The notes beneath the pieces were generated by a model. The model saw nothing but the letters and a program-made list of their open reading frames with translations, made no database searches and had not been told where the DNA came from. Shown piece after piece: positions 1-10,253 of a stretch of 10,253 nt of DNA. Numbering within the stretch: the stretch's first letter is position 1; each line of letters begins with the position of its first letter. This DNA is from Terramyces sp. JEL0728 (taxonomy: Eukaryota; Chytridiomycota; Chytridiomycetes; Rhizophydiales; Terramycetaceae), in contig JADIIU010000230.1 of NCBI GenBank assembly GCA_027603945.1, positions 1 through 10,253 on the forward strand. The letters are read 5' to 3'. The position numbers and the translations under genes were made by a program.

Positions 1-433
1 AATCATAGCCAAACGGAATTGGCTGCTGCGTTTTAAAGTCTTTGACCATCACAGAAACAACAGTGTCGTAAGTGTCAAATGGGTACGTGACAGTTTTAGC
101 GTCCAAGATCGGTATAACTGAAGTTACCTGCTGCAGAAAATCTTTGGCGTCTTTGAAATCATTTGATTTTCCGTTAATGACGAGAGAGTAGTTGACAGCT
201 GAGATGGACGAAGACACGACAGTTAATTGAAGGGCAATCGGGTTGAATGCCGCAATTTGATTGGTAACATTGACATCAGCAGAAACTCCAGCTCCAACTC
301 CAGCTTTTTCTCTATTGTTGAACGACCTGTTGTTGATCCAGGTACAGACACCAATTACGCCCAAGTACAGCACAAAACATAATAAGAAAATCACCTTTTG
401 GTGCAATTTTAGTCCTCCAACCTGATATGTCAT
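1..433 (-). CDS. DUF4436-like membrane protein, paralogue A (N-terminal part)
   Basis: This is the amino-terminal 144 residues of a gene that runs off the left edge. The ATG at 433-431 gives MTYQVGGLKLHQ, which aligns directly with the starts of the two neighbouring paralogues. One hydrophobic helix (about residues 14-31) acts as a signal anchor. It is followed by an extracytoplasmic domain containing NVTNQI, VNYSLVINGK and the hallmark YPFDTY. The rest of the ectodomain and the three carboxy-terminal helices seen in paralogue B should lie outside the window. The reading frame is open throughout, so it lacks both introns found in paralogue C. The assignment to DUF4436 rests on the YPFD(T/R)Y motif and the 1+3 helix layout as I remember the family; no biochemical function is known to me. 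A TATA box lies 30 nt upstream of the ATG. Confidence 0.8.
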   Translation of the reverse strand, partial: MTYQVGGLKLHQKVIFLLCFVLYLGVIGVCTWINNRSFNNREKAGVGAGVSADVNVTNQIAAFNPIALQLTVVSSSISAVNYSLVINGKSNDFKDAKDFLQQVTSVIPILDAKTVTYPFDTYDTVVSVMVKDFKTQQPIPFGYD

Positions 434-741
434 TGAATGAGTTTCTTTCCTGTCGTCTTTATATATTTTTTCGGCGTTTCAGAATAATAGAAGTGTGGCT
501 TTTATGGCAAAATAACATGGAAATTGGTGGTACATGCAATGGCGGTACTTTTGGAGGGAAATAAATATCTTATATGAAATAGTTGACACTGAAGAGCGAG
601 CCGGGAATTCATTTGCTTACGCACCCCATGGAGTTTATTTGCGGGCATTGAGCATCAAAGAGGGCAGTTCAGGGACCAGGGAATTGGACAAAGGGAAGAA
701 AGACACCGAAATTTAATCACAATAAACGAGTTATATATTAA
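434..741. other. Intergenic spacer between tandem DUF4436-like genes
   Basis: This 308-bp spacer holds the promoter of paralogue A at its left end and the 3' flank of paralogue B at its right end. The minus strand downstream of paralogue B has AATATA-type but no perfect AATAAA signal. A 60-codon plus-strand frame (534-716) starts with ATG, but it resembles no protein I know and is probably chance. No repeat or RNA gene was seen. Confidence 0.5.
458..465 (-). promoter_or_regulatory. TATA box of paralogue A
   Basis: On the minus strand this reads TATATAAA. The first T of TATAAA is 30 nt upstream of the A of the ATG at 433. The same element occurs at nearly the same distance before the other two paralogues (31 and 32 nt), which supports its being functional. 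Confidence 0.6.
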
Positions 742-1641
742 TTATCTGCGAGAGTTCAAAGTAGTAGAATATGGGAGATATTGCTCTTGCTTTGGTGTGG
801 GTTTCCCGTCAGCAGTATATACAGTTACATAGTTGATCAAGCCCATTGCAACAGCTGCTGTAACCAGAAACATGCACGGGAAGAAGGCCAGAACATCCGC
901 ATTGCATCCAACAGGTGGGGCACCAGGTTGCGCATTACGGATATTTGGCAGCGCAAATAGGATAGCACCTACAGCAGCTATTGTCGGTGGTTCTACTTTT
1001 CTGCCTCTGGTCCAGATGGAAAGAGTAACCATGAATGCAGCACCAGATAGCACCCACATTGTGCAATATAAAAATATGCTAAAAACAATGGAAATAGTAG
1101 TTCGCTGCAAATTAATCGCAAACAGTTTTTCTACTGCTGGGCCATCATCGTTACCAGCGACATCGATAACATCAATATTACTTTTCCACAAATCGATACT
1201 CCCTGAAAAATCAAAACCAAATGGAATTGGCTGCTGCGTTTTAAAGTCTTTGACCATCACAGACACGAAAGTGCTGTAAGTGTCGAATGGATAAGTAACT
1301 GTCTTGGAATCTGTAATAGGAATCACACTGGTAATTTGTTGAAGGAAATCTTTGGCGTCTTTGAAATCACTGGCTTTACCATTAATAACAATCGAGTAAT
1401 TTACAGCAGATACAACTGACGTAACTACACTTAGTTGAAGGCCATTAGAGTTGAATGATTGGATTTGGTTGGTTACGTTGACATCTGCGAGGACTCCAGC
1501 TCCAGCACCCGACTGTTCGCGATCTTGAAATGCAGCATTGTTCAAGAATGTACACAATAGTATCAGCCCAGCATAGACAATTAATCCAAGCAGGAATAGT
1601 AGTCTTTGAGATAGCTGTAATCCGCCAACTTTGAAAGCCAT
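742..1641 (-). CDS. DUF4436-like four-helix membrane protein, paralogue B
   Basis: This 299-residue protein is complete and uninterrupted. It has a short cytoplasmic start (MAFKVGGLQLSQ), helix 1 at about 14-33, and an extracytoplasmic domain at about 35-180 with NVTNQI, VNYSIVINGK and YPFDTY (117-122). Three further helices follow at about 182-209, 220-232 and 250-271. A conserved basic loop, TRGRKVEPP, joins helices 2 and 3, and a short polar tail ends the protein. The layout fits the DUF4436 family as I know it; the role is unknown, and a plasma or endomembrane location is inferred from the helices. It lies in tandem with paralogue A and is divergent from paralogue C. About 128 bp around helices 2-3 are almost identical to paralogue C although the rest has diverged, which suggests gene conversion. 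It has no introns, unlike C. Confidence 0.85.
   Translation of the reverse strand: MAFKVGGLQLSQRLLFLLGLIVYAGLILLCTFLNNAAFQDREQSGAGAGVLADVNVTNQIQSFNSNGLQLSVVTSVVSAVNYSIVINGKASDFKDAKDFLQQITSVIPITDSKTVTYPFDTYSTFVSVMVKDFKTQQPIPFGFDFSGSIDLWKSNIDVIDVAGNDDGPAVEKLFAINLQRTTISIVFSIFLYCTMWVLSGAAFMVTLSIWTRGRKVEPPTIAAVGAILFALPNIRNAQPGAPPVGCNADVLAFFPCMFLVTAAVAMGLINYVTVYTADGKPTPKQEQYLPYSTTLNSRR
920..1047 (-). repeat. Inverted near-identical tract, copy 1 (paralogue B)
   Basis: This 128-bp tract is the reverse complement of 2858-2985 with a single mismatch (a synonymous T/C in a Phe codon). It covers the end of helix 2, the TRGRKVEPP loop and helix 3. Flanking coding sequence is clearly less similar, including at third positions. 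It is coding sequence, not a mobile element. Confidence 0.85.
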
Positions 1642-1666
1642 TTGTGGTCAAGGACACTTTCCGGCC

Positions 1667-1672
1667 TTTATA
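1667..1672 (-). promoter_or_regulatory. TATA box of paralogue B
   Basis: TATAAA on the minus strand; its first T is 31 nt upstream of the A of the ATG at 1641. Confidence 0.6.
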
Positions 1673-2194
1673 CGCTACACTGTTTCAAATTATCACCTTG
1701 TGGCTCTTTGAGATATTAACTGCAATCACTTACTCTTGATGGATTTGTCGAGACAGATTCTTGCGGCATTTTGTAATATACTGGATTGTCCAATGTTTCA
1801 CCTGCCCTACCAGTCTATTGCAAATCCACTTGTGAAATAATCAAGTTCCGACAAAGGCAGAGTTTTCCCCTTGTTTCTCGGTGTTTGGCTGGGGGTTTCA
1901 AACTAACAATCACAGGAAGGCGTCCATAACTGAAGCTTATCTGACCGCTTCTGTTGGCAATCATAGTCATATTGAATCCGCCGTAACCTTTGTACTTTAG
2001 ACCCGCCCTTATCTGCAGCTAACCAGCTTTGAGAGACATGTTTTCAAATGACACTTTCGACTCACTGGTGGAGCCAAGAAAATCCCCTTGTACAAAGATT
2101 CAAAGTCAAAATAGTGCCAGAATCATCTTGTCAAAACCACCATTTTACTCTTCTCCATGGGTATTTCCACGAATGTTATCCACGCCATTGAGCT

Positions 2195-2200
2195 TATAAA
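2195..2200 (+). promoter_or_regulatory. TATA box of paralogue C
   Basis: TATAAA whose first T is 32 nt upstream of the A of the ATG at 2227. An out-of-frame ATG at 2211 lies between the two. It would open a 15-codon overlapping uORF (2211-2258) if transcription began before it. The usual TATA-to-start distance of about 30 nt would place the mRNA 5' end after it. Confidence 0.55.
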
Positions 2201-2226
2201 ATCCAGAACAATGTTTGAAATCCAAA

Positions 2227-3295
2227 ATGGCACTCATCATTGGAGGCAAGCGTGTTAGTCAACGATTACTATTTGCACTTGGCGCCTTACTCTACATTGC
2301 GATTATCGTGATTTGTACAATCTTTAACGGGATGTCTTATAACCATCGTCAAGGGTCTGGCGTTGGTGGATTGACTTTTAGTAATGTAAACGTTTCAAAC
2401 CAAATTATTGCGTTCAATCCCACTGCTCTTCAAATAACGGTAACAGTAATCTAAATTCAGCTGATTTCTTCGGTTGTATCATCAGTCAATTATTCCATCT
2501 TTATCAATGGTAAAGCCAATGATTTTAAAGTAAGATTTGTTGACACAGGATGCAAGAGATTCGCTTCAACAAGTATCAAGCAGTATTCCCATTATTGAAG
2601 CCCACACCGTAACATATCCATTTGATACTTATTATACTATCGTCTCGGTTCTCGTAAAGGATTTCTCTTCGCAGAAACCAATTCCATTCAGCTACGACTT
2701 TTCTGGTGCTATTGATTTGTGGAAGAGTGATATCGAAGCTTATGGCGATGGTAGCTCGTTAGGACCTACTGAAGAAACGCTGTTTGAAATCACTATTACG
2801 AGAACGTACATTACGATTGTATTCAGTATTTTCTTGTACGCTATCATGTGGGTCCTTTCTGGTGCTGCATTCATGGTTACTCTTTCCATCTGGACCAGAG
2901 GCAGAAAAGTAGAACCACCGACAATAGCTGCTGTAGGTGCTATCCTATTCGCGCTGCCAAATATCCGTAATGCGCAACCTGGTGCTCCAGCAGTTGGATG
3001 TAACGCAGATATCGTAGCGTTCTTCCCGTGTTTGATCCTAGTAACTGCTTCTGTAGCTATGGGTCTAATCAACTACTTTAGTGTATACAAAGCCGACGCC
3101 AAGGTACAACCAGCAAAGGCACCATTGGTACAAAATGATACTGTACTCAACATGGAAGGCGTAAGGGATAACAAACCCCCTTCGATTAAAAAGGAAGAAA
3201 GACCAGCTTCAGTAAAATCGGCCAAGAAGGACGAAAAGCAAGATGTGGTTGATTCTCAACCAAGGGCAGAGGTTCAATCTTACCAATACGAATAA
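2227..3295 (+). CDS. DUF4436-like membrane protein, paralogue C (3 exons)
   Basis: Exons 2227-2439, 2461-2529 and 2549-3295 encode 342 residues. The ATG at 2227 (MALIIGGKRVSQ) aligns with the starts of A and B. Unspliced DNA has an in-frame TAA at 2452 and a frameshift near 2530. Removing 21 nt and 19 nt with GT..AG ends restores alignment to A and B without gap or loss (LQITLISSVVSSVNYS and NDFKDARDSLQQ across the joins). Helix 1 lies at about 14-33, YPFDTY at 117-122, and helices 2-4 at about 181-208, 219-231 and 248-268. C differs from B by a tail of about 70 residues after helix 4 that is rich in Lys, Glu and Pro and is presumably cytosolic. AATAAA follows the stop at once. The alternative of a pseudogene is unlikely, since both lesions have splice-site ends. 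Confidence 0.85.
2440..2460 (+). other. 21-nt spliceosomal intron (paralogue C, intron 1)
   Basis: Begins GTAACA, ends TTCAG, phase 0. It carries CTAAAT just before the 3' end as a branch-point candidate, and an in-frame TAA. Removal joins ACG to CTG and restores alignment with both intronless paralogues. Confidence 0.85.
2530..2548 (+). other. 19-nt spliceosomal intron (paralogue C, intron 2)
   Basis: Begins GTAAGA, ends CACAG, phase 0, with TTGAC as the branch-point candidate. It is the shortest in the window. Its length is not a multiple of three, so retention shifts the frame. Paralogues A and B have DFKDAKD uninterrupted here. Confidence 0.88.
2858..2985 (+). repeat. Inverted near-identical tract, copy 2 (paralogue C)
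   Basis: Partner of 920-1047: 128 bp with one mismatch, in opposite orientation, about 1.8 kb away. It encodes SGAAFMVTLSIW through NAQPGA. Confidence 0.85.
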
Positions 3296-3296
3296 C

Positions 3297-3302
3297 AATA
3301 AA
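3297..3302 (+). promoter_or_regulatory. Polyadenylation signal of paralogue C
   Basis: AATAAA one base after the TAA stop (3293-3295). The 3' UTR must be very short or must run into the convergent gene, whose stop is at 3329 or 3367. Confidence 0.6.
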
Positions 3303-3328
3303 TATATTAGTTATATCAGAGACAATCG

Positions 3329-3663
3329 CTATTGCGTTTGATTTCCGCTAGGATTGATGTCTAGGGTCAATTATATATACCAATTTGATAATTGTCGTTG
3401 CGCATTTCAGTGAGGAGTTCTGCAACTTCCAATTCTTGTGCAGTCGGAACGTTTAAGCGAGTATCGATCGGAATCTGGTACCTTAATTTGCTCTGTTTCT
3501 TTTTATGCTTTATCGGTAATATTTTGCGCTGTGAAATTGGTTTTGGTTGGTTTGCGCCTTTGGTTAGCACTTTAATCGCATCACTTTCTAGTGTTATACT
3601 TTGATTACCAAGTTCTTGTATTGATAGATTGGTAATCATGTCGCTCAGATCTTGGATTGTCAT
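3329..3663 (-). CDS. Small orphan protein, about 104 residues (2 exons proposed)
   Basis: I do not recognise this protein. The ATG at 3663 opens MTIQDLSDMITNLSIQELG. A Lys-rich middle follows (KHKKKQSKLRYQ, about 53-64), then a Leu/Glu-rich segment (AQELEVAELLTEMRND). No signal peptide or membrane helix is seen, so it is probably soluble, and the basic stretch may act as a nuclear signal. Read without splicing it ends at 3367 after 98 residues. A GT..AG segment of 20 nt (3361-3380) with a TTGAC branch motif like the proven introns lies just before that stop. If removed, the protein ends DINPSGNQTQ at a TAG at 3329-3331 (104 residues; exons 3381-3663 and 3329-3360). No homology decides between the two. 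It is convergent with paralogue C. Confidence 0.55.
3361..3380 (-). other. Candidate 20-nt intron in the small orphan gene
   Basis: On the minus strand it begins GTATAT and ends CCTAG, with TTGAC placing the candidate branch adenosine 6 nt from the 3' end, as in the proven introns. Phase 1. It is supported by motif similarity only and lacks a homology test. Confidence 0.55.
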
Positions 3664-3713
3664 GGCGAGTTGAAGAAAGCTAAATTTTCCCAGCCTTTGA
3701 AATATACAGTAAC

Positions 3714-3785
3714 CTCTGTTTATTACACAGCTAGTATCTCTGTTTATTACATAACTAGTATCTCTATTATCACATGTAACTATTA
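3714..3785. repeat. 24-bp tandem repeat, about 2-3 units, carrying poly(A) signals
   Basis: Two good units (3714-3737, 3738-3761) of CTCTGTTTATTACA.. type are followed by a decayed third. On the minus strand each good unit contains AATAAA (3719-3724 and 3743-3748), 66 and 42 nt past the stop of the VanZ-like gene. The repeat has therefore duplicated that gene's polyadenylation signal. It also lies 50-120 bp upstream of the small orphan gene. Confidence 0.7.
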
Positions 3786-3789
3786 CAAA

Positions 3790-4220
3790 TCAATCTTCAA
3801 TATATACAGTTTCCAGCTCTACATAGTCTACCGTACGCTGCCTAGACCTGTAGATATATTCAACGATCAAAGCACTCGCAATACCAAACGCACTTCCCTT
3901 TAGATTCGCCTACGATTAAAACCAAGTACTAGAATATCCTGGAAATCAAATTGACGATACGGAAGCAGCCCTTGAACAACTTCGCTCCCAAATGAAACCA
4001 GTAACATTAATATTACTGTTATTAGTGCGTTTTTAAAAGTGTTCCGCTGCCATACAAAATATAATACAATTGAAAGAATGTAAAATCCAGTAAAATGGAG
4101 TGTCTTGTCGTTCTTGAGGAATTGCGGTAATAGTGGGACGATAGCTGAATTTGGGAGAAACCCTAACAGCGCCAAAAGCCCAAGTATTACTCCAAGCAGA
4201 ATCACACACTGGTATCGCAT
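3790..4220 (-). CDS. VanZ-like family membrane protein (2 exons)
   Basis: Exons 4220-3930 and 3909-3790 encode 136 residues. Hydrophobic helices lie at about 6-23, 43-57, 65-78 and 102-117. The family signature is clear: DKTLHFTGFYILS (38-50), SEVVQGLLPYRQFDFQDILAN (79-99) with conserved Glu, Gln, Pro-Tyr-Arg and Asp positions, then GSAFG after the splice. Unspliced, the frame runs into FNRRRI and stops. Removing 20 nt continues the expected DILAN..GSAFGIASALIVEY. The family is named after the teicoplanin-resistance protein VanZ; in fungi, small VanZ-like proteins are of unknown role and no antibiotic link is implied. Only 41 bp separate its ATG from the stop of the gene upstream on the same strand, so its promoter must overlap that gene's 3' end unless they are co-transcribed. 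Confidence 0.82.
3910..3929 (-). other. 20-nt spliceosomal intron (VanZ-like gene)
   Basis: On the minus strand it begins GTACTT, ends CGTAG, phase 0, with TTAAT as branch candidate 6 nt from the end. Removal joins CTA to GCG and restores the VanZ-family DILAN..GS core. Confidence 0.87.
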
Positions 4221-4257
4221 TCAATTTGAGAAAAGGAGACAAAAACCGCACCATAAT

Positions 4258-4263
4258 TTTATT
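4258..4263 (-). promoter_or_regulatory. Poly(A) signal overlapping a stop codon
   Basis: AATAAA on the minus strand; its first two bases are the last two of the TAA stop (4264-4262) of the gene upstream of the VanZ-like gene. Confidence 0.5.
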
Positions 4264-4885
4264 AATATTTTTTAACCTTCTTTTTGGGATCTTCTTCATC
4301 CTCAATTGCTCTCTTTTTGTTTTCTTTCTTTTCATCTTCATTTTTGGCCTTCTTTTTCGTTTCCTTTTCCTCAATCTTTGGCAGGTTCAGCGAGTCGACC
4401 CTACAATTAACCTGGGAATACCATTTGGTGTGTAGCTGCTTTATCGTTTTAGCTACTTTCTTTCCATCTCCTCTCACTGAAAATGCAACGAATCTGTTTT
4501 CTTTTACTTTCTCGGCCCATTCATCTTCGCTTCTCTTCCATTCGCAAACTGCTCGCTGTTTCTTTTGCTTGTCCCACGGTTGCACTCCAGAGTAGCATTC
4601 AAACGGATACTTTAATTCTATTGTAACTCGAGATTCGTGAACTCCAGTCTGTAACCACATCTTTAAAATATCTCGCTCGTCAATGGAAAGTTTCGCTCGG
4701 TGAGTGACCATTGTCTTTGTGCTGACTATACAAAAATATTCAATTACTAAAGTTTGTTTAATTACTTTTAATACTGTTTGGATACGCTCTTTTGGATCTG
4801 GGACTAGGCCAAAGTCGGATTCAAAGAGATTTCCTCTTTCAAATACCAGGGCTTCTACTATAGTAATTGGGGGTTCTTTGGACAT
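4262..4885 (-). CDS. Unrecognised 207-residue protein with Lys/Glu-rich tail
   Basis: I do not recognise a family. The ATG at 4885 begins MSKEPPITIVEALVFERGN. Residues 1 to about 165 look like one folded, soluble alpha/beta domain (ERIQTVLKVIKQTLVIEYFCIV, DERDILKMWLQTG, VTIELKYPFECYSGVQPW, NRFVAFSVRGDGKKVAKTIKQ). From about 168 the chain turns into alternating Lys/Glu runs and ends DPKKKVKKY, a likely nuclear signal. No signal peptide or transmembrane helix is visible. The frame is open throughout. A GT..AG 21-mer inside it (within GKKVAKTIKQ) could be spliced without changing frame, but nothing requires it. It is divergent from the MYND gene, sharing a 236-bp spacer. Confidence 0.7.
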   Translation of the reverse strand: MSKEPPITIVEALVFERGNLFESDFGLVPDPKERIQTVLKVIKQTLVIEYFCIVSTKTMVTHRAKLSIDERDILKMWLQTGVHESRVTIELKYPFECYSGVQPWDKQKKQRAVCEWKRSEDEWAEKVKENRFVAFSVRGDGKKVAKTIKQLHTKWYSQVNCRVDSLNLPKIEEKETKKKAKNEDEKKENKKRAIEDEEDPKKKVKKY

Positions 4886-4913
4886 TTTTTAGATTTTCAA
4901 AAAAAATTGATAT

Positions 4914-4920
4914 TGACTCA
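4914..4920 (+). promoter_or_regulatory. TGACTCA (Gcn4/AP-1-type) motif
   Basis: A perfect 7-bp bZIP consensus site 29 bp upstream of the ATG at 4885 in the divergent spacer. A single short match, so it may be chance. Confidence 0.3.
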
Positions 4921-4958
4921 CATTTTTCATTGTCAATAAGATATAAGGCGTGGAAGGG

Positions 4959-5067
4959 CTGGATCTATAAAGTACCGTCTGCAGCTGTAGGCTGGGTCTA
5001 TAAAGTACCATCTGCAGCTGTAGGTTGGATCTATAAAGTACCGTCTGCAGCTGTAGGTTGGATCTAC
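4959..5067 (+). repeat. 33-bp tandem repeat, 3.3 units, each with TATAAA and CTGCAGCTG
   Basis: Units lie at 4959-4991, 4992-5024 and 5025-5057, plus about 10 bp of a fourth, differing at only a few positions. Each contains TATAAA and the overlapping palindromes CTGCAG and CAGCTG (an E-box core). Because 33 is a multiple of three, frames stay open across it: GWIYKVPSAAV is repeated on the plus strand, but with no ATG upstream, so coding is unlikely. Its place between the divergent genes and the last TATAAA (5032-5037) suggest a multiplied core-promoter element for the MYND gene. Confidence 0.85.
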
Positions 5068-5070
5068 TCA

Positions 5071-5114
5071 ATGTCCAACCAGTCTTCTCGATGAGTGAGA
5101 TGTCATTCTTGTGA
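5071..5114 (+). other. Two overlapping short upstream ORFs before the MYND gene
   Basis: ATG at 5071 opens seven codons ending in TGA at 5092-5094. A second ATG at 5091 overlaps that stop (ATGA) and ends at 5114. Both precede the ATG at 5122. They would lie in the leader if transcription starts about 30 nt after the TATAAA at 5032. They are irrelevant if it starts further downstream. Confidence 0.35.
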
Positions 5115-5121
5115 TAATAAA

Positions 5122-6435
5122 ATGTCATTTGACCAACCTTTTATCAGATATTTTGATTACGTGATTTTCTGTCTCCACAAAATGTGCTCCCTTTCCCCAC
5201 CTATAGATAGAGATATGTACGCTCCATCTAAACTTTTGTCAAGCAACATATGCACAAGTTTGGATGCGCTGCGTACTTATCAAGACAACCACTGGTGTTT
5301 GATTGCCCAGATCGCCAATTACACCCTGTCCAACGACAACATTGTCCTTTTCTTGCAAATAGGATCAGAAATTGTAGAGGCTTATTCAACCCAAGATCTG
5401 GTACAAAATGTCAACTCTTTCTCCAACCTCGCTATTGGAAATACGATTGTAATCATGTATGCCAATGTCCAGGAAGGACGAATCCCACTAAATCTGGATG
5501 AAATGTTTATATTCAATACAAACATAAAGTCCTTGATCCAAGATATGATCAGCTTAAAGTCGCGCGTATGCTTTTCAAATGAGTGTGATTCTACTAAAGT
5601 ATTCGCGTGCAATAATTGTAAAGTAGCTCTGTACTGCGGTAAAGATCACCAAAGGCATGAATGGAAAGTGCATAAAAAGATCTGCAGCGAAATGTCCATC
5701 CTAAAGGAAATTGTTTTATTGTTCAGCAAGAAATCACCAGTATTCAAGAGACACAGTTTCAAACCACAAACTCAAGAATTATCGATAAACAAAGACGAGT
5801 TCAAGTGGGAAGAAAAATGTCTTGATATTCAGCAACAAGCAAAAGTAGTTTGTGAAATGTTGGACATTAATGACAAAAATACTATTGAAATTGGTATTGA
5901 AGAAGAAGGGTACGAGATTGTAGATCTTGAAAAGGAACAGGCTGACGACCATTATTTACAATGCAAGGGCAGCAACACAAATATCTTGACTGAATTGAAT
6001 GCAAGACTAATTCAGGGCAAGTCGGATGCAGTCATAGAATATACTCCTTCTGACGATATCCTAGCTTTTCTTCCTTTGATTTCGCCAAAGGAAACTAGGC
6101 TGTTTTGGTTAATTAATGTAACGCACCCGCTCTTGTACAAGGAGAAATATGAAGCTTTGGGATGGGAGATCCCAGATGATTGTAATGAAGAGCTACTTTA
6201 TTGCAAAAAAGAGAATACGGCTGTGGTTTTGACTTGTGTTGTAGGCATTAACCCTACCTTTGTTGGATCTGAAATGATTATCAGGGTTTTACAAACTGAC
6301 CAATTGGGCAACTTCGAATTGAAACAAGCGCTGTACGATGGTAAACATGGCATGTGTACCATTTGGTTAAAAAGCGGTAATTTTGGCGGGTATGACGATA
6401 ACATGCCTCAATTTTATCAAAACTTGATTAACTAA
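5122..6435 (+). CDS. MYND-type zinc-finger protein
   Basis: A 437-residue frame from the first in-frame ATG (5122). ATGs at 5182 and 5215 are alternative starts, and the region before MYAPSKLLSS (5215) has no support of its own. The MYND finger spans about residues 150-188. Its likely zinc ligands are C150, C155, C163, C166, C172, H176, H184 and C188, with the typical LYCGKDHQRHEWKVHKKIC ending. The first pair is spaced C-x4-C rather than the common C-x2-C. MYND fingers bind proline-rich peptides and recruit partners. No SET domain is seen, so a methyltransferase is unlikely. About 140 residues precede the finger and 250 follow, in a fold I do not recognise (LFWLINVTHPLLYKEKYEALGW, VVLTCVVGINPTF). 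It is convergent with the transcription factor gene, 21 bp between stops. Confidence 0.85.
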   Translation: MSFDQPFIRYFDYVIFCLHKMCSLSPPIDRDMYAPSKLLSSNICTSLDALRTYQDNHWCLIAQIANYTLSNDNIVLFLQIGSEIVEAYSTQDLVQNVNSFSNLAIGNTIVIMYANVQEGRIPLNLDEMFIFNTNIKSLIQDMISLKSRVCFSNECDSTKVFACNNCKVALYCGKDHQRHEWKVHKKICSEMSILKEIVLLFSKKSPVFKRHSFKPQTQELSINKDEFKWEEKCLDIQQQAKVVCEMLDINDKNTIEIGIEEEGYEIVDLEKEQADDHYLQCKGSNTNILTELNARLIQGKSDAVIEYTPSDDILAFLPLISPKETRLFWLINVTHPLLYKEKYEALGWEIPDDCNEELLYCKKENTAVVLTCVVGINPTFVGSEMIIRVLQTDQLGNFELKQALYDGKHGMCTIWLKSGNFGGYDDNMPQFYQNLIN

Positions 6436-6456
6436 AATATATTATAAATCTAAGTA

Positions 6457-8068
6457 TTAGAAAGTGTGCAGCGCTTCATTTGGATTGGCAATCCATTTTT
6501 GAAGCATCTCAGAGTACTTTTCAGCTGTTGATGAGAAAACTGACACCAGACTGAATGCGTGTATGATCATGTCTAGTGATTTAGTTAATCCCGGAGACGG
6601 TCCGTTGATTAATGTGCTTATAACTTGCACACCGGCAGCTTCAAAGATACAGTTTGAGATATTATCTGGGATACCAGTAAATGTGGGGTTGTGTGTCAGA
6701 ATAATCTTTAGGATTTTCGAAATTACTGAAGCAGATTCAAAGCAAGTAGCAGTGTAAGGATTGGTGCTGTTTGCTAGTGGATCAGTCAGCGACATTATGA
6801 ACTGGCTCTTTCGTAGTTGGATAAATAAGTAGTGGCAAAAGCAGTGAAGATATGCGATTCGCCATGAAGGTACATTGGGAGTGTTTTCGTCGTTAGAATA
6901 AACTTGGGGAATGACTTGTAGCCATCGAGGTAGGTCTGTAACCCATCTTGTTAGTTCTCCGTGTAATTGATCTTGTTGATACAGATCTCCAACATTGGTC
7001 TTCAAGTGATGTTCTATCCGTTTCGCAATTCGGAGCAATGAACAGTAATAGGCGTGGTAGGTATCTTGCATTGAATTTTGGACAGTGCCAGCTGGGTAGC
7101 CAATGAGAATATCGGATTCGTCTGCTATTATGCATGGGAGCTTTGCTGCTTTGGACGAGTAATAGTCGTATTCATAAACATGCCACCATAGGTGATCGCA
7201 GAATTGCTTGGCCGGGATAGGTTCGTTGCTCATCAATGTCCCGTTTGGAGAAAACCAAAGTACTTCACCGCCTCTATGGATGCCAAGCCTTTGAGTCATT
7301 CTGATTGCAAGACCATAGTAGGAGACGCTTGTAATGCTTCTTGCTGAATTGTCTGCATAGATTCCCATCAGGAGAAAAGCAGTACTGGTGAATGGATTGG
7401 GTATATCGAGAACTTGGGATAATAGCTTTTTCGCCTGGGTATGGTAAACATCACCAGCTTTCCAGGACCCACCCATTGCAATTGGTGCAGTACATGCTAT
7501 TGCGTACATTGAATGTAAAAGGATTAGTGGTATTTCTTTAACATTTTCCATGAACCAAGTTTCTGAAAATAAAGGCAGCTTTGTATTAGCCCACGAGAAA
7601 TATACTTTGAGCCACGGTAATAGATTTCCATCTGTTGTTCTAATGCTTGGGAAAGAATAGAAGCTCCAATGATCTAAATCTTCAATTGGCGAAACGATTG
7701 GAGTTGGCAAGTAAGAATTTTCAAATGGTAATTCGTACTGTAGCATTGGTGCATCCTTGATAAACATCTCTGGACTTGGCTGCGGTGTTGGATTTGTTTG
7801 AAATGTAAAGCTGTAATTTGTAGAAGCTGGGGATTTTTCTTCGTTTGATTCTGAATCGTAGTCTGCCTTTGTGTCAGTGTGTTGAGAAGCATTAGCCCTC
7901 TTTCTTTTTGGTCTTTGGGAGTAAGTACAGTTTGCTCCTAGCTTGATGCATCTCTCACATGGATTTTCTCCATCGCATTTCGTTTTCTAGAGTCAACGGA
8001 TGAATTACCTTTGCTGCACAAAAATCACATGCTTTATTTGATCGTTTACGTCGCTGTGGTGCTTGCAT
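6457..8068 (-). CDS. Zn(II)2Cys6 fungal transcription factor (2 exons)
   Basis: Exons 8068-8009 and 7986-6457 encode 529 residues. An in-frame TAA lies four codons upstream of the ATG. The Zn2Cys6 cluster (residues 14-40) has six cysteines spaced C-x2-C-x6-C-x5-C-x2-C-x6-C (C14, C17, C24, C30, C33, C40), flanked by basic RRKR and RPKRKR. A polar linker rich in Ser, Thr, Pro and Glu leads to the fungal-specific transcription factor domain (about 140-470). Its typical blocks are YFSWANTKLPLF, LLMGIYADN, YYGLAIRMTQRLGIHRGGE and the DYYSS..LP.II.DESDI region. Such factors usually bind CGG half-sites as dimers in the nucleus and control metabolic or drug-response genes; the target here is unknown. 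The intron falls inside the zinc cluster, between Lys20 and Lys21. Confidence 0.92.
7987..8008 (-). other. 22-nt spliceosomal intron (Zn2Cys6 gene)
   Basis: On the minus strand it begins GTAATT, ends TCTAG, phase 0, with GTTGAC placing the branch candidate 6 nt from the end. Removal gives CDFCAAKKTKCDGENPCERC, a perfect Zn2Cys6 motif. Retention shifts the frame within the finger. Confidence 0.92.
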
Positions 8069-8179
8069 GCTTCCTACTTAGCACCAATGATTGCTTTTAA
8101 ATTATTTCTAATGTGGCATACGTCCCAATTTGGTAAACGTTGGCCTGGAGCCTTGGCCCAGAGATGGCAGAGGGTGGAT

Positions 8180-8196
8180 CCAGTTATCAGAACTGG
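8180..8196. repeat. Short perfect inverted repeat
   Basis: Six-bp arms CCAGTT/AACTGG around a 5-nt loop, about 110 bp upstream of the transcription factor start. It could be a dimer binding site, but it lacks CGG half-sites. Confidence 0.3.
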
Positions 8197-8712
8197 GTGT
8201 CTCCAACCGAGCCTTGCATTTTCTACATTAATGCGGTGAATGTCTTGTAAACTATTCGTTAGATGTCAAAATATCTATGATCAATCTTTACGGCCTACGC
8301 ATGGAAAAATTTTAACCAGACAATCTGGTACCTGTCACTTCTATTTTAAGATGGATTTGGGAACTGGCTGGCTGACATGCACTTTTCGCGGGAACCATAC
8401 AGCTCATTCACACAAATCACCTTCGGTTCACAAATACTCGATTAATACTCTGTCAACTTTCAAATTTGTCAGCAAAGCAAAGGATTTATTATCCCCCTGC
8501 TCTTCACAGCAAGGTTTCGCAGGAAATTTGGCAATTGAAATCCGTGGCTACCCATACATGCACCCCAACGAAAATCACAAAAACAGCCCTGAAACAACCA
8601 AGCGATAGGCGAATACCTGTTCACAATCATATGAGACTCCGAATTTATAGTCGGTGACTAATGTTAGGGAATTGGTGCTTCATCTTGTTACGAAGGGAAA
8701 TGTCTGGGACTG

Positions 8713-8730
8713 GCCATTGCAATCAATGGC
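8713..8730. repeat. Short perfect inverted repeat
   Basis: Seven-bp arms GCCATTG/CAATGGC around a 4-nt loop in the gene-poor region. Function unknown; it may be chance. Confidence 0.3.
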
Positions 8731-9266
8731 GGGCAGGTTCAAAGGGATCATGCGACTTCCAGCCATGAAATAACATCATTGCTAGGCTAGATAACACAAC
8801 TGCGGGCCATCATATAAATCATAATTGATCCATTTGAATTTCTCTAAATCTAGCCTTGTGCCCAGTTTAGGATAAATCCTTTTTACGTTGCTCGTTAAAG
8901 AAAATGTTTTTAGGGAGCAGGGGAATTTGTGATGCTTGGAATAGTTGCTCCGAGCTGGTTGACTGTGGTTGAATTGCTCAAACCTTTGCTTGTTCTAGAT
9001 GGATTGAAGATATTCCAAAATACAAAGTCGCACAAATTCCTTATACTATTTGAAATTCAGTCTGACTTGAATCAAACCCATTCCTGCTTCGCAACCGTAT
9101 ACTTTGGATCAGTTGGATTTCGCTCGATTGAAACTTGGAGCAGTCGCAAATGAATGATATTCTTCATTCGAGTATTGATTTCATACCGTTCAATATTTGT
9201 GGTTGAAACTATTGTCTTTACCCGAATTTAATTCTAGGATTACAAGGTCATTATTACAAAAACAGT

Positions 9267-9272
9267 TTTATT
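9267..9272 (-). promoter_or_regulatory. Polyadenylation signal of the phosphatase gene
   Basis: AATAAA on the minus strand, 4 nt after the stop codon (9279-9277). It matches the tight stop-to-signal spacing seen for paralogue C. Confidence 0.65.
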
Positions 9273-9276
9273 GAGG

Positions 9277-10253
9277 TTACAAGAAATAGTGCGGTCCAGT
9301 TCTAGCGGGGATGACTCTCTTGTCATCTGGAACCGCATTGAAAATTTTGAATGATTCTTCAGTTACAACAAGATCGCGATTGATTTGTAGTATCGAGGCA
9401 ACATTCCCGCTACGATAACAATAGTTTGGCGCCGACCATACTGTTACTAGGTTGTCATCGGGAAACATGAATTTGTAGCCCTCTTGGACTAGTTGATGCG
9501 CTCTTGCAATCAAAGTTAGATTATTAACTTGGCAAAACTAGGTTAGACAGTATCTACTTCAAGTGTTACTTTGCGTCCAAACAGCCATCCGGCTCCTCTG
9601 GGACTTACTGCCCAAGTGTCGATATCTTCTGGGTCAGACCACATTAAATCTCGATTAGTAATATAGATACCACAGAATGCTCCTTCATGCGGAATTTCCT
9701 GGCATCTTTGAATGGTTCGAATTTGGTCCAGCGTGCGGATATCTGGGGATAGTCCACCATGTACGCAAAGCACACGACCATCAACAATCTAATTTAACGA
9801 ATATTTACAGCTGCAAGAGTGATAAAGTCAAATACACTGCAACATGCTTTCCATACATTCGCATTCCCATATTTAGTCTGGCATTCATCTTTAATTAATT
9901 GCAAAGTACCATAAAATCCATATATTTGTGTAATTTGTCTACTTTCATGATTCCCTCTTAACAAAGTAAGCTTGTCCGGGTATCTGGCTTTGAGAGCAAG
10001 TAATAATGTAAATGTTTCCAAGCTGTAATATCCTCTGTCCACAAAATCACCCTTTCGTTAAGTTCAAGTACCATGAATATGTAGGAGGTGTTTGGAATCT
10101 CTCCCCCCACTCTAAATAACTCGAGCAAGTCATAAAATTGTCCGTGGATATCTCCGCAAATTGTAACAGGAGAACAGACTGGCTGAACGTTTGATTCTTC
10201 CACTAGCAGCTCCTTCACCTGAGATTAACAAAACTAACCATCTCACACAGTTT
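9277..10253 (-). CDS. SIT4: Ser/Thr protein phosphatase PP6/Sit4-type catalytic subunit (5'-partial, 7 exons here)
   Basis: Exons 10253-10239, 10218-10072, 10051-9910, 9888-9809, 9788-9671, 9649-9558 and 9537-9277 give 284 residues. They start at KLCEMVKELL, about residue 26 of the usual 305-310; the amino end lies past the right edge. All PPP-family metal and catalytic motifs are present: [44 protein letters not shown] and [27 protein letters not shown] and [13 protein letters not shown], with the end RTGPHYFL, place it with human PP6 and yeast Sit4/Ppe1 rather than PP2A or PP4. The terminal YFL matches the carboxyl-methylated tail of PP2A-like enzymes. The family acts with SAPS subunits in cell-cycle, TOR and DNA-damage signalling. 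Six introns of 20-21 nt must be removed to give this near-perfect family sequence. The symbol is by family, not by proven orthology. Confidence 0.95.
9538..9557 (-). other. 20-nt spliceosomal intron (phosphatase)
   Basis: Begins GTAGAT, ends CCTAG, phase 0, branch candidate TCTAAC 5 nt from the end. It contains an in-frame TAA. Removal joins RKVTLE to [10 protein letters not shown] as in PP6. Confidence 0.93.
9650..9670 (-). other. 21-nt spliceosomal intron (phosphatase)
   Basis: Begins GTATCT, ends TCGAG, phase 1, with a canonical TACTAAT branch motif 5 nt from the end. It has no in-frame stop, so retention would insert seven residues between GAFC and DLMWSD. Confidence 0.93.
9789..9808 (-). 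other. 20-nt spliceosomal intron (phosphatase)
   Basis: Begins GTAAAT, ends ATTAG, phase 0, branch candidate GTTAAA. Removal joins FITLAA to [12 protein letters not shown]. Confidence 0.93.
9889..9909 (-). other. 21-nt spliceosomal intron (phosphatase)
   Basis: Begins GTACTT, ends TAAAG, phase 1, branch candidate TTAAT 6 nt from the end. It has no in-frame stop. Retention would insert seven residues into IYGFY/DECQ, which is invariant in PP6. Confidence 0.93.
10052..10071 (-). other. 20-nt spliceosomal intron (phosphatase)
   Basis: Begins GTACTT, ends GAAAG, phase 0, branch candidate CTTAAC 6 nt from the end. Removal restores [16 protein letters not shown] across the metal-binding GDxVDRG motif. 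Confidence 0.94.
10219..10238 (-). other. 20-nt spliceosomal intron (phosphatase, most 5' in window)
   Basis: Begins GTTAGT, ends CTCAG, phase 0, branch candidate GTTAAT 6 nt from the end. Removal joins KLCEM to [14 protein letters not shown]. It is the only one of the set with GTT at the 5' end. Confidence 0.85.

Follow-up and report, generated by a model that had tools for sequence, protein, structure and literature searches.

Putative U2-type spliceosomal introns of almost fixed length, 19-22 nt, in the chytrid fungus Terramyces sp. JEL0728

Conserved genes in a 10,253-nt stretch of DNA from Terramyces sp. JEL0728 (positions 1-10,253, hereafter the window) are interrupted by segments of only about 20 nt. 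The question raised by this locus is whether such segments are introns, and by what machinery they might be removed. A preliminary description of the window had proposed a whole class of tiny spliceosomal introns in a fungal genome. The host is indeed a fungus, a soil chytrid (Chytridiomycota, Rhizophydiales, Terramycetaceae), for which one of the DUF4436 proteins of the window has been deposited; its genome assembly contains 15,016,339 bases in 231 contigs. The analyses described here, which are based on sequence, suggest that the segments are almost certainly U2-type spliceosomal introns of near-minimal and almost fixed length (19-22 nt, mode 20), and that these are the only intron class visible in a 200-kb sample of the genome.

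Tiny introns in the window

The introns and the additional candidate are as follows.

2440..2460, plus strand: DUF4436 gene, intron 1; 21 nt; branch-like site CTAAA; ungapped against the intronless paralogue after removal
2530..2548, plus strand: DUF4436 gene, intron 2; 19 nt; branch site TTGAC
3361..3380, minus strand: candidate intron close to the 3' end of a short gene without family assignment; 20 nt; TTGAC
3910..3929, minus strand: intron of a VanZ-like gene; 20 nt; branch site TTAAT; Pfam support
7987..8008, minus strand: intron within the Zn(2)-Cys(6) cluster of a fungal transcription factor gene; 22 nt; TTGAC
9538..9557, minus strand: phosphatase intron; 20 nt; CTAAC
9650..9670, minus strand: phosphatase intron; 21 nt; CTAAT
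9789..9808, minus strand: phosphatase intron; 20 nt; TTAAA
9889..9909, minus strand: phosphatase intron; 21 nt; TTAAT
10052..10071, minus strand: phosphatase intron; 20 nt; TTAAC
10219..10238, minus strand: phosphatase intron; 20 nt; TTAAT; outside the PP2A-C alpha alignment

Apart from the candidate at 3361-3380, these are the ten interruptions first reported, and their coordinates, lengths and ends proved exact. All have GT..AG ends; one is 19 nt long, five are 20 nt, three are 21 nt and one is 22 nt. Their excision restores the frame of a PP2A/PP6-type phosphatase, a VanZ domain, a complete Zn(2)-Cys(6) cluster, and a DUF4436 protein of 342 residues. All four spliced products passed the Pfam cut-offs (Phosphatase, DUF4436, VanZ, Zn_clus).

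A chance test was performed with a branch motif learned on another contig. The pool consisted of the 243 GT..AG segments of 19-22 nt on both strands of the window; the null is conservative because the listed segments themselves were kept in the pool. A branch-like motif of the required score and place was found in 10 of the 11 listed segments, compared with 7.4% of the pool (binomial P ~5e-11). The sole miss was 2440-2460, in which CTAAA is rightly placed but was outscored by an upstream chance match. The eleventh segment, 3361-3380, has been borne out in its length, its GT..AG ends and its class geometry (branch A 6 nt from the end). Its case is one of motif and length, because removal alters only the final residues of a protein that matches nothing in Pfam at E 0.01.

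Intron lengths in a genome sample

The sample, 1.3% of the genome, was taken from another contig (C1:1-200000). Genes were predicted with a two-strand coding model that had GT..AG as its sole splice signal, weighted lengths of 10-200 nt equally, and used no motif. This model called 200 introns in 72 genes, 67 of them at 19-22 nt (11, 27, 20 and 9, respectively); the remaining 133 were scattered over other lengths, with no more than 4 per length. A repeat of the run placed 68 of 208 introns at 19-22 nt (13, 25, 19 and 11). The GT-AG ends are imposed by the gene model; eight other dinucleotide pairs yielded no comparable peak, with totals at 19-22 nt of 4 (GC-AG), 3 (GA-AG), 13 (TG-GA), 9 (CA-AC), 7 (GT-AC), 4 (AT-AC), 4 (TG-AG) and 5 (CT-AC). 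There was no excess of a GC-AG class in the 200 kb.

A strict motif count paired GTA donors with YTRAY-(T/C)AG acceptors, and the mean of lengths 100-600 nt (6.6 per length) served as background. At 19-22 nt, 45, 71, 38 and 13 pairs were counted, which gives 167 against 26.4 expected (z 27). Between 23 and 100 nt, no band in the sample rose above background; introns spread evenly over 100-600 nt would hide in that background. No peak appeared with GAT as donor.

A second pass favoured lengths of 17-24 nt and is thus a catalogue rather than a test. It contains 105 genes, 65 of them with introns, and 198 introns: 36, 83, 41 and 19 at 19-22 nt, six at 23-24 nt, one of 13 nt, one of 16 nt, and eleven longer than 24 nt. 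Ten of these eleven have no class 3' motif. The other, a call of 164 nt, resembles a gene join, because a new ATG lies inside it and it ends in a 20-nt class-like intron. Scaling of the 179 introns per 200 kb suggests that the genome might hold on the order of 13,000 such introns.

The proposed class of tiny introns therefore recurs away from the window. The intron length distribution, the plot of which had been proposed as a check, was obtained for the sample from sequence and has one visible class, 19-22 nt with mode 20. The statement that no longer intron is needed also holds in the sample, at the resolution of the dinucleotide controls and the motif count. In the sense of one class below about 25 nt and no ordinary introns, the sample is that of a uniform ultra-short intron genome.

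Branch motif and splice sites

The peak introns of the motif-free model differ from its other calls in sequence. Strict YTRAY was present in the last 14 nt of 46 of the 67 peak introns versus 34 of 129 off-peak calls, and a GTA start in 58 of 67 versus 53 of 129. When expectation maximization (EM) was run with no motif supplied on those second-pass introns that are 18-24 nt long (185 introns), it returned [TC]T[AG]A[TC], which is YTRAY. If the best motif site of each intron is taken, the branch A lies at position 14-16 in 164 of the 185 introns, and 5-6 nt ahead of the final G in 144. The 3' ends are TAG (128), CAG (29), AAG (23) and GAG (5). At the 5' end, 88% begin with GTA, followed by A at +4 (55%), T or G at +5 (44% and 23%), and T at +6 (57%); the commonest hexamer is GTAATT (25 of 185). 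The layout is thus a 5' GTA (consensus GTAATT), 7-8 nt, YTRAY, and then mostly (T/C)AG.

YTRAY is complementary to the GUAGUA of the U2 small nuclear RNA (snRNA) found in this genome, as is expected of the branch site of U2-type introns. The 5' splice site does not have a prevailing G at +5. G at +5 is usual in fungal 5' splice sites, although it is not strictly required. This G has been largely lost here and the branch position is nearly fixed; both observations go beyond the preliminary description.

Junctions compared with homologues

Homologues of six genes align without a gap at 24 of 27 junctions. In the sample, 14 models were listed, being those with the most introns among the models with all introns of 17-24 nt; three were compared with chains of the Protein Data Bank (PDB) and four with Pfam. 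The PDB search gave ungapped junctions at 4 of 4 places in methylcrotonyl-CoA carboxylase beta (MCC beta), 4 of 4 in glycerol-3-phosphate dehydrogenase (GPD1; one a 24-nt intron), and 5 of 7 in dynamin, where one junction adjoins a gap and another falls outside the aligned region. Pfam found strong domains in three of the four further models (eIF3c, DGAT, and protein kinase), and none at E 1e-10 in the fourth. A Boothiomyces protein of equal length (360 aa) agrees with the DGAT2 product at each of its four junctions. Accordingly, the idea that the public annotation is wrong across the whole family was rejected.

The gene of SF1, the branch-site binding protein, needs three introns of 19 nt, 21 nt and 20 nt. 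The 21-nt intron is a GC-AG intron with the donor GCAAGT and class geometry (locus L046, G000:C39 around 54,566-54,908). In comparison with solved SF1/BBP chains, no gap occurs at the last two junctions, and the first is two residues from a one-residue gap.

DUF4436 genes and the deposited model

Two complete DUF4436 genes could be compared within the window.

2227..3295, plus strand: DUF4436 (PF14494) gene; 342 aa with both introns excised; deposited as HDV01_003470, 319 aa
742..1641, minus strand: intronless DUF4436 paralogue, the internal control; Pfam match over 742-1635

The HDV01_003470 protein is short by 23 residues, which corresponds to one excised stretch of 109 nt. The exon between the two introns was dropped, apparently because the two tiny introns were fused into one. 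Ten of the 20 homologues found were aligned. The exon is ungapped in eight of these ten, including the intronless paralogue. The two models without it are HDV01_003470 itself and one from Boothiomyces sp. JEL0866, in which the same exon is skipped; this suggests that the Boothiomyces gene carries the same two introns. For annotators, it is a warning that a deposited protein on this contig misses a conserved exon.

The two genes belong to a row of three adjacent DUF4436 genes, the third being partial (2-478, minus strand). The window also contains two tandem repeats, one at 4957-5066 (33-bp unit, 3.3 copies, 93% matches) upstream of a MYND gene, and one of 24 bp at 3714-3765.

Phosphatase gene and its copies

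Six of the introns belong to one gene at the end of the window.

9277..10253, minus strand: PP2A/PP6-type protein phosphatase catalytic subunit; truncated at its 5' end by the window border; supported by Pfam and PP2A-C alpha

The spliced product was aligned with PP2A-C alpha (2ie4_C) over query residues 2-280, and all five junctions inside the alignment are ungapped. The sixth (10219-10238) is upstream of it; many fungal relatives cover the whole query, in terms of coverage only. Named relatives include the PP6 catalytic subunit of Batrachochytrium salamandrivorans and Ppe1 of Schizosaccharomyces. Among the best 120 of 7996 matches, no entry named as Terramyces or Boothiomyces was found.

A second copy of the gene at the end of contig C197 (L047) has 98.2% identity over 842 bases. 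The copies differ at 6 of 122 intron positions and 9 of 720 exon positions (Fisher p 0.013). The intron lengths, GT, branch core and AG are all unchanged, and seven of the nine exon changes fall on third codon positions of a frame that exists only after splicing. The 5' end of the gene is visible in this copy, along with one more candidate intron, 23 nt long, that follows the first codons. For 9650-9670, an alternative intron of 24 nt, starting three bases earlier, is seen in the C197 copy. The conserved Cys of EGAFCDLMW favours the 21-nt intron as the probable form. The phosphatase segment 9277-10253 recurs near contig ends (G000:C59:203-699, C197:144-640 and C197:16279-16775, the latter two at both ends of C197). 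This recurrence is possibly a subtelomeric duplication or the result of unresolved haplotypes.

Spliceosome components

A U2 snRNA (140.2 bits) with a canonical GUAGUA region was found, which reads GUGUAGUAUC. The U5 snRNA (85.9 bits), the U1C zinc finger (52.4 bits), and SF1-HH in two pieces above the cut-off (66.2 and 42.9 bits) were also identified; SF1-HH was found in none of 14 prokaryotic control genomes. Two identical tRNA genes, 429 bases apart, lie downstream of the U5 gene (L035, G000:C84, 1501-2411). The spliceosomal nature proposed for the introns is thus upheld by a YTRAY motif that was learned de novo and fits the U2 GUAGUA, by TAG or CAG ends in 157 of 185 introns, by the GC-AG member, and by the presence of SF1, U1C and U5.

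Searches for the U1 and U6 RNAs gave negative results. For U1, the covariance search scored 41 of 233 candidates and found nothing at E 1; a 5'-end pattern matched 66 places versus 41 in the reversed control, and four places of canonical form had no cmscan match. For U6, the covariance search scored 48 of 1328 candidates, with a best of only 27 bits against a cut-off of 44 bits. BLAST with the U6 Rfam consensus found nothing. A gapped U6 pattern matched two places, neither with canonical spacing or a cmscan U6 match, and a mismatch pattern matched one place with no U6 match in cmscan. A further pattern matched 14 places; the best is coding, and the three examined (the best and two more) have no U6 match. 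The best result of the covariance search, a nearly identical U6-like pair of about 27 bits (L030, G000:C199:4823-4928, and L031, C111:34941-35045), was rejected, as it has ACAGAGA but, judging from the alignment, no AGC triad; it is probably a repeat matched by chance. The failure to find U1 and U6 could be due to an incomplete assembly, introns in the RNA genes, loss of candidates at the first step of the search, or divergence.

Alternative explanations

The segments could lie inside ordinary introns of 80-160 nt, with the apparent short exon between two of them being intronic. The HDV01_003470 model reads the DUF4436 gene in this way. However, the exon is kept ungapped by eight of ten homologues, the exceptions being that model and its Boothiomyces counterpart. 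The phosphatase, MCC beta, GPD1 and SF1 genes also require the exons between their junctions, and no motif excess exists at 23-100 nt, so that this explanation is very improbable. The segments could also be removed without a spliceosome, by excision of the Ire1/ligase type (HAC1-like) or by ribosomal bypassing of about 20 nt. Some HAC1-type introns are about 20 nt long, which is in favour of the former. Neither mechanism predicts a branch motif nearly fixed in place, ends that are mostly TAG or CAG with a GC-AG member (donor GCAAGT), or about 900 sites per Mb in unrelated genes; a spliceosome is preferred for this reason, and non-spliceosomal removal has very little likelihood. Assembly or sequencing insertions, or decaying pseudogenes, would account for the broken frames and nothing more. 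They are extremely improbable in view of the nearly fixed length and motif, and of a diverged gene copy that holds the same segments with intact signals and substitutions mostly at third positions of the spliced frame. Finally, tiny introns might be confined to part of the genome, with a second class of normal length elsewhere or with other motifs. The small sample, the 11 of 198 second-pass introns longer than 24 nt, and the motif background at 100-600 nt all leave room for such a class. On the other hand, only one of the eleven long introns has the class 3' motif, and it resembles a gene join; the bands of 23-100 nt have no motif excess either. A second class is therefore considered unlikely.

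Several results weigh against a single class of tiny spliceosomal introns. The length survey covers 1.3% of the genome and one contig. The strict YTRAY is present in only 46 of the 67 peak introns, and nine lack even the looser YTRA[ACT], although a TAA or TTA core occupies that position in most of the nine. The control pair TG-GA reached 13 calls, nine of them at 20 nt. The second pass took up only 84 of the 167 candidates from the strict motif count, so the gene-model catalogue is incomplete. In the depositor's HDV01_003470 model, the two introns do not appear as separate introns. The zf-U1 model also exceeds its cut-off in one of the 14 prokaryotic controls, and the U1 and U6 RNAs were found neither by covariance nor by BLAST (U6) or pattern searches.

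Proposed mechanism

For U2-type introns of this size, YTRAY might be recognized by SF1 and then by U2. Branching would produce a lariat loop of only about 14-16 nt, and the first AG downstream of the branch would be taken without a polypyrimidine tract, for which there is no room. In a 20-nt intron, positions 1-6 would pair with U1 and then with U6, and positions of about 11-16 with U2, with the bulged A at 14-15 and the AG within 6 nt. Because the 5' site and the branch duplex would be nearly adjacent, U1 and U2 are probably barred from their usual extended geometry on one intron. Recognition would thus have to be tight or sequential, as there is no room for a tract and few nucleotides link the duplexes. 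A likely accommodation would be that U1 leaves early, or that the 5' site is recognized chiefly through U6 and Prp8. G at +5 pairs with both U1 and U6, and its loss would be consistent with a weaker U1 step.

A more far-reaching reading is that a free-living fungus has independently reduced all of its introns to about 20 nt and, in doing so, rebuilt its 5' splice-site recognition (GTAATT over G at +5). U1, and perhaps U6, would have moved beyond the standard models, and introns would be defined by the branch site and AG together with U6 and Prp8, with U1 weak or bypassed. This reading is rather doubtful. An RNA missing from a draft assembly says little, and Stentor keeps canonical U1 and U6 according to an excerpt of PMC9505925; both points count against a rebuilt U1.

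Comparison with known systems

Terramycetaceae are generally described as free-living. Introns of other chytrids (Batrachochytrium) are of ordinary length and differ in this respect from those of Terramyces. Their genes are similarly intron-rich, as described in parts of PMC5364385 and PMC6572847. No title or abstract on introns of Terramyces, Boothiomyces or Terramycetaceae was found among those listed from the open-licence literature, and passages of PMC11649378 mention no chytrids.

The closest match in length is the nucleomorph of chlorarachniophytes, whose introns the preliminary description gave as about 18-21 nt. An excerpt of PMC10245619 confirms numerous introns of 18-21 bp in a narrow size range. 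The nucleomorph is a relict algal nucleus inside another cell, whereas Terramyces is a fungus with a 15-Mb genome and a clear branch motif. The same excerpt reports introns of 16-17 bp in Mikrocytos mackini, with 224 introns and a reduced parasite genome and spliceosome; these are likewise uniform and ultra-short. Paramecium and Nyctotherus also have only ultra-short introns, which are around 25 bp and thus of a different length (PMC5014332, in part).

For Stentor, the preliminary description gave a length of about 15 nt. This is near the 15-16 bp given in the excerpt of PMC10245619, where the value applies to heterotrichs. Stentor resembles Terramyces in having a single tiny length class with a GUA start in a free-living organism, and the commonest intron of Stentor coeruleus begins with GUAAUU (PMC9505925, in part), like the GTAATT found here. 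The two differ in that the excerpts give Stentor introns of 15-16 nt, with the branch A at 10-11 and no strong branch consensus, whereas those of Terramyces are 19-22 nt, with A at 14-16 and a clear YTRAY. The comparison suggests that the shared GUAAUU start might be a convergence.

As far as the searches of open-licence literature reach, uniform ultra-short introns are known from a relict nucleus, ciliates and reduced parasites, and a free-living fungus would be a new lineage for them. Yeasts, which are kin of this fungus, have solved spliceosome structures. With a readable branch site and SF1 in such a relative, the minimum distances from the 5' site to the branch and from the branch to the 3' site become testable. 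Terramyces might thus offer, beside the nucleomorphs and the ciliates, a fungal system for asking how small an intron the spliceosome can remove.

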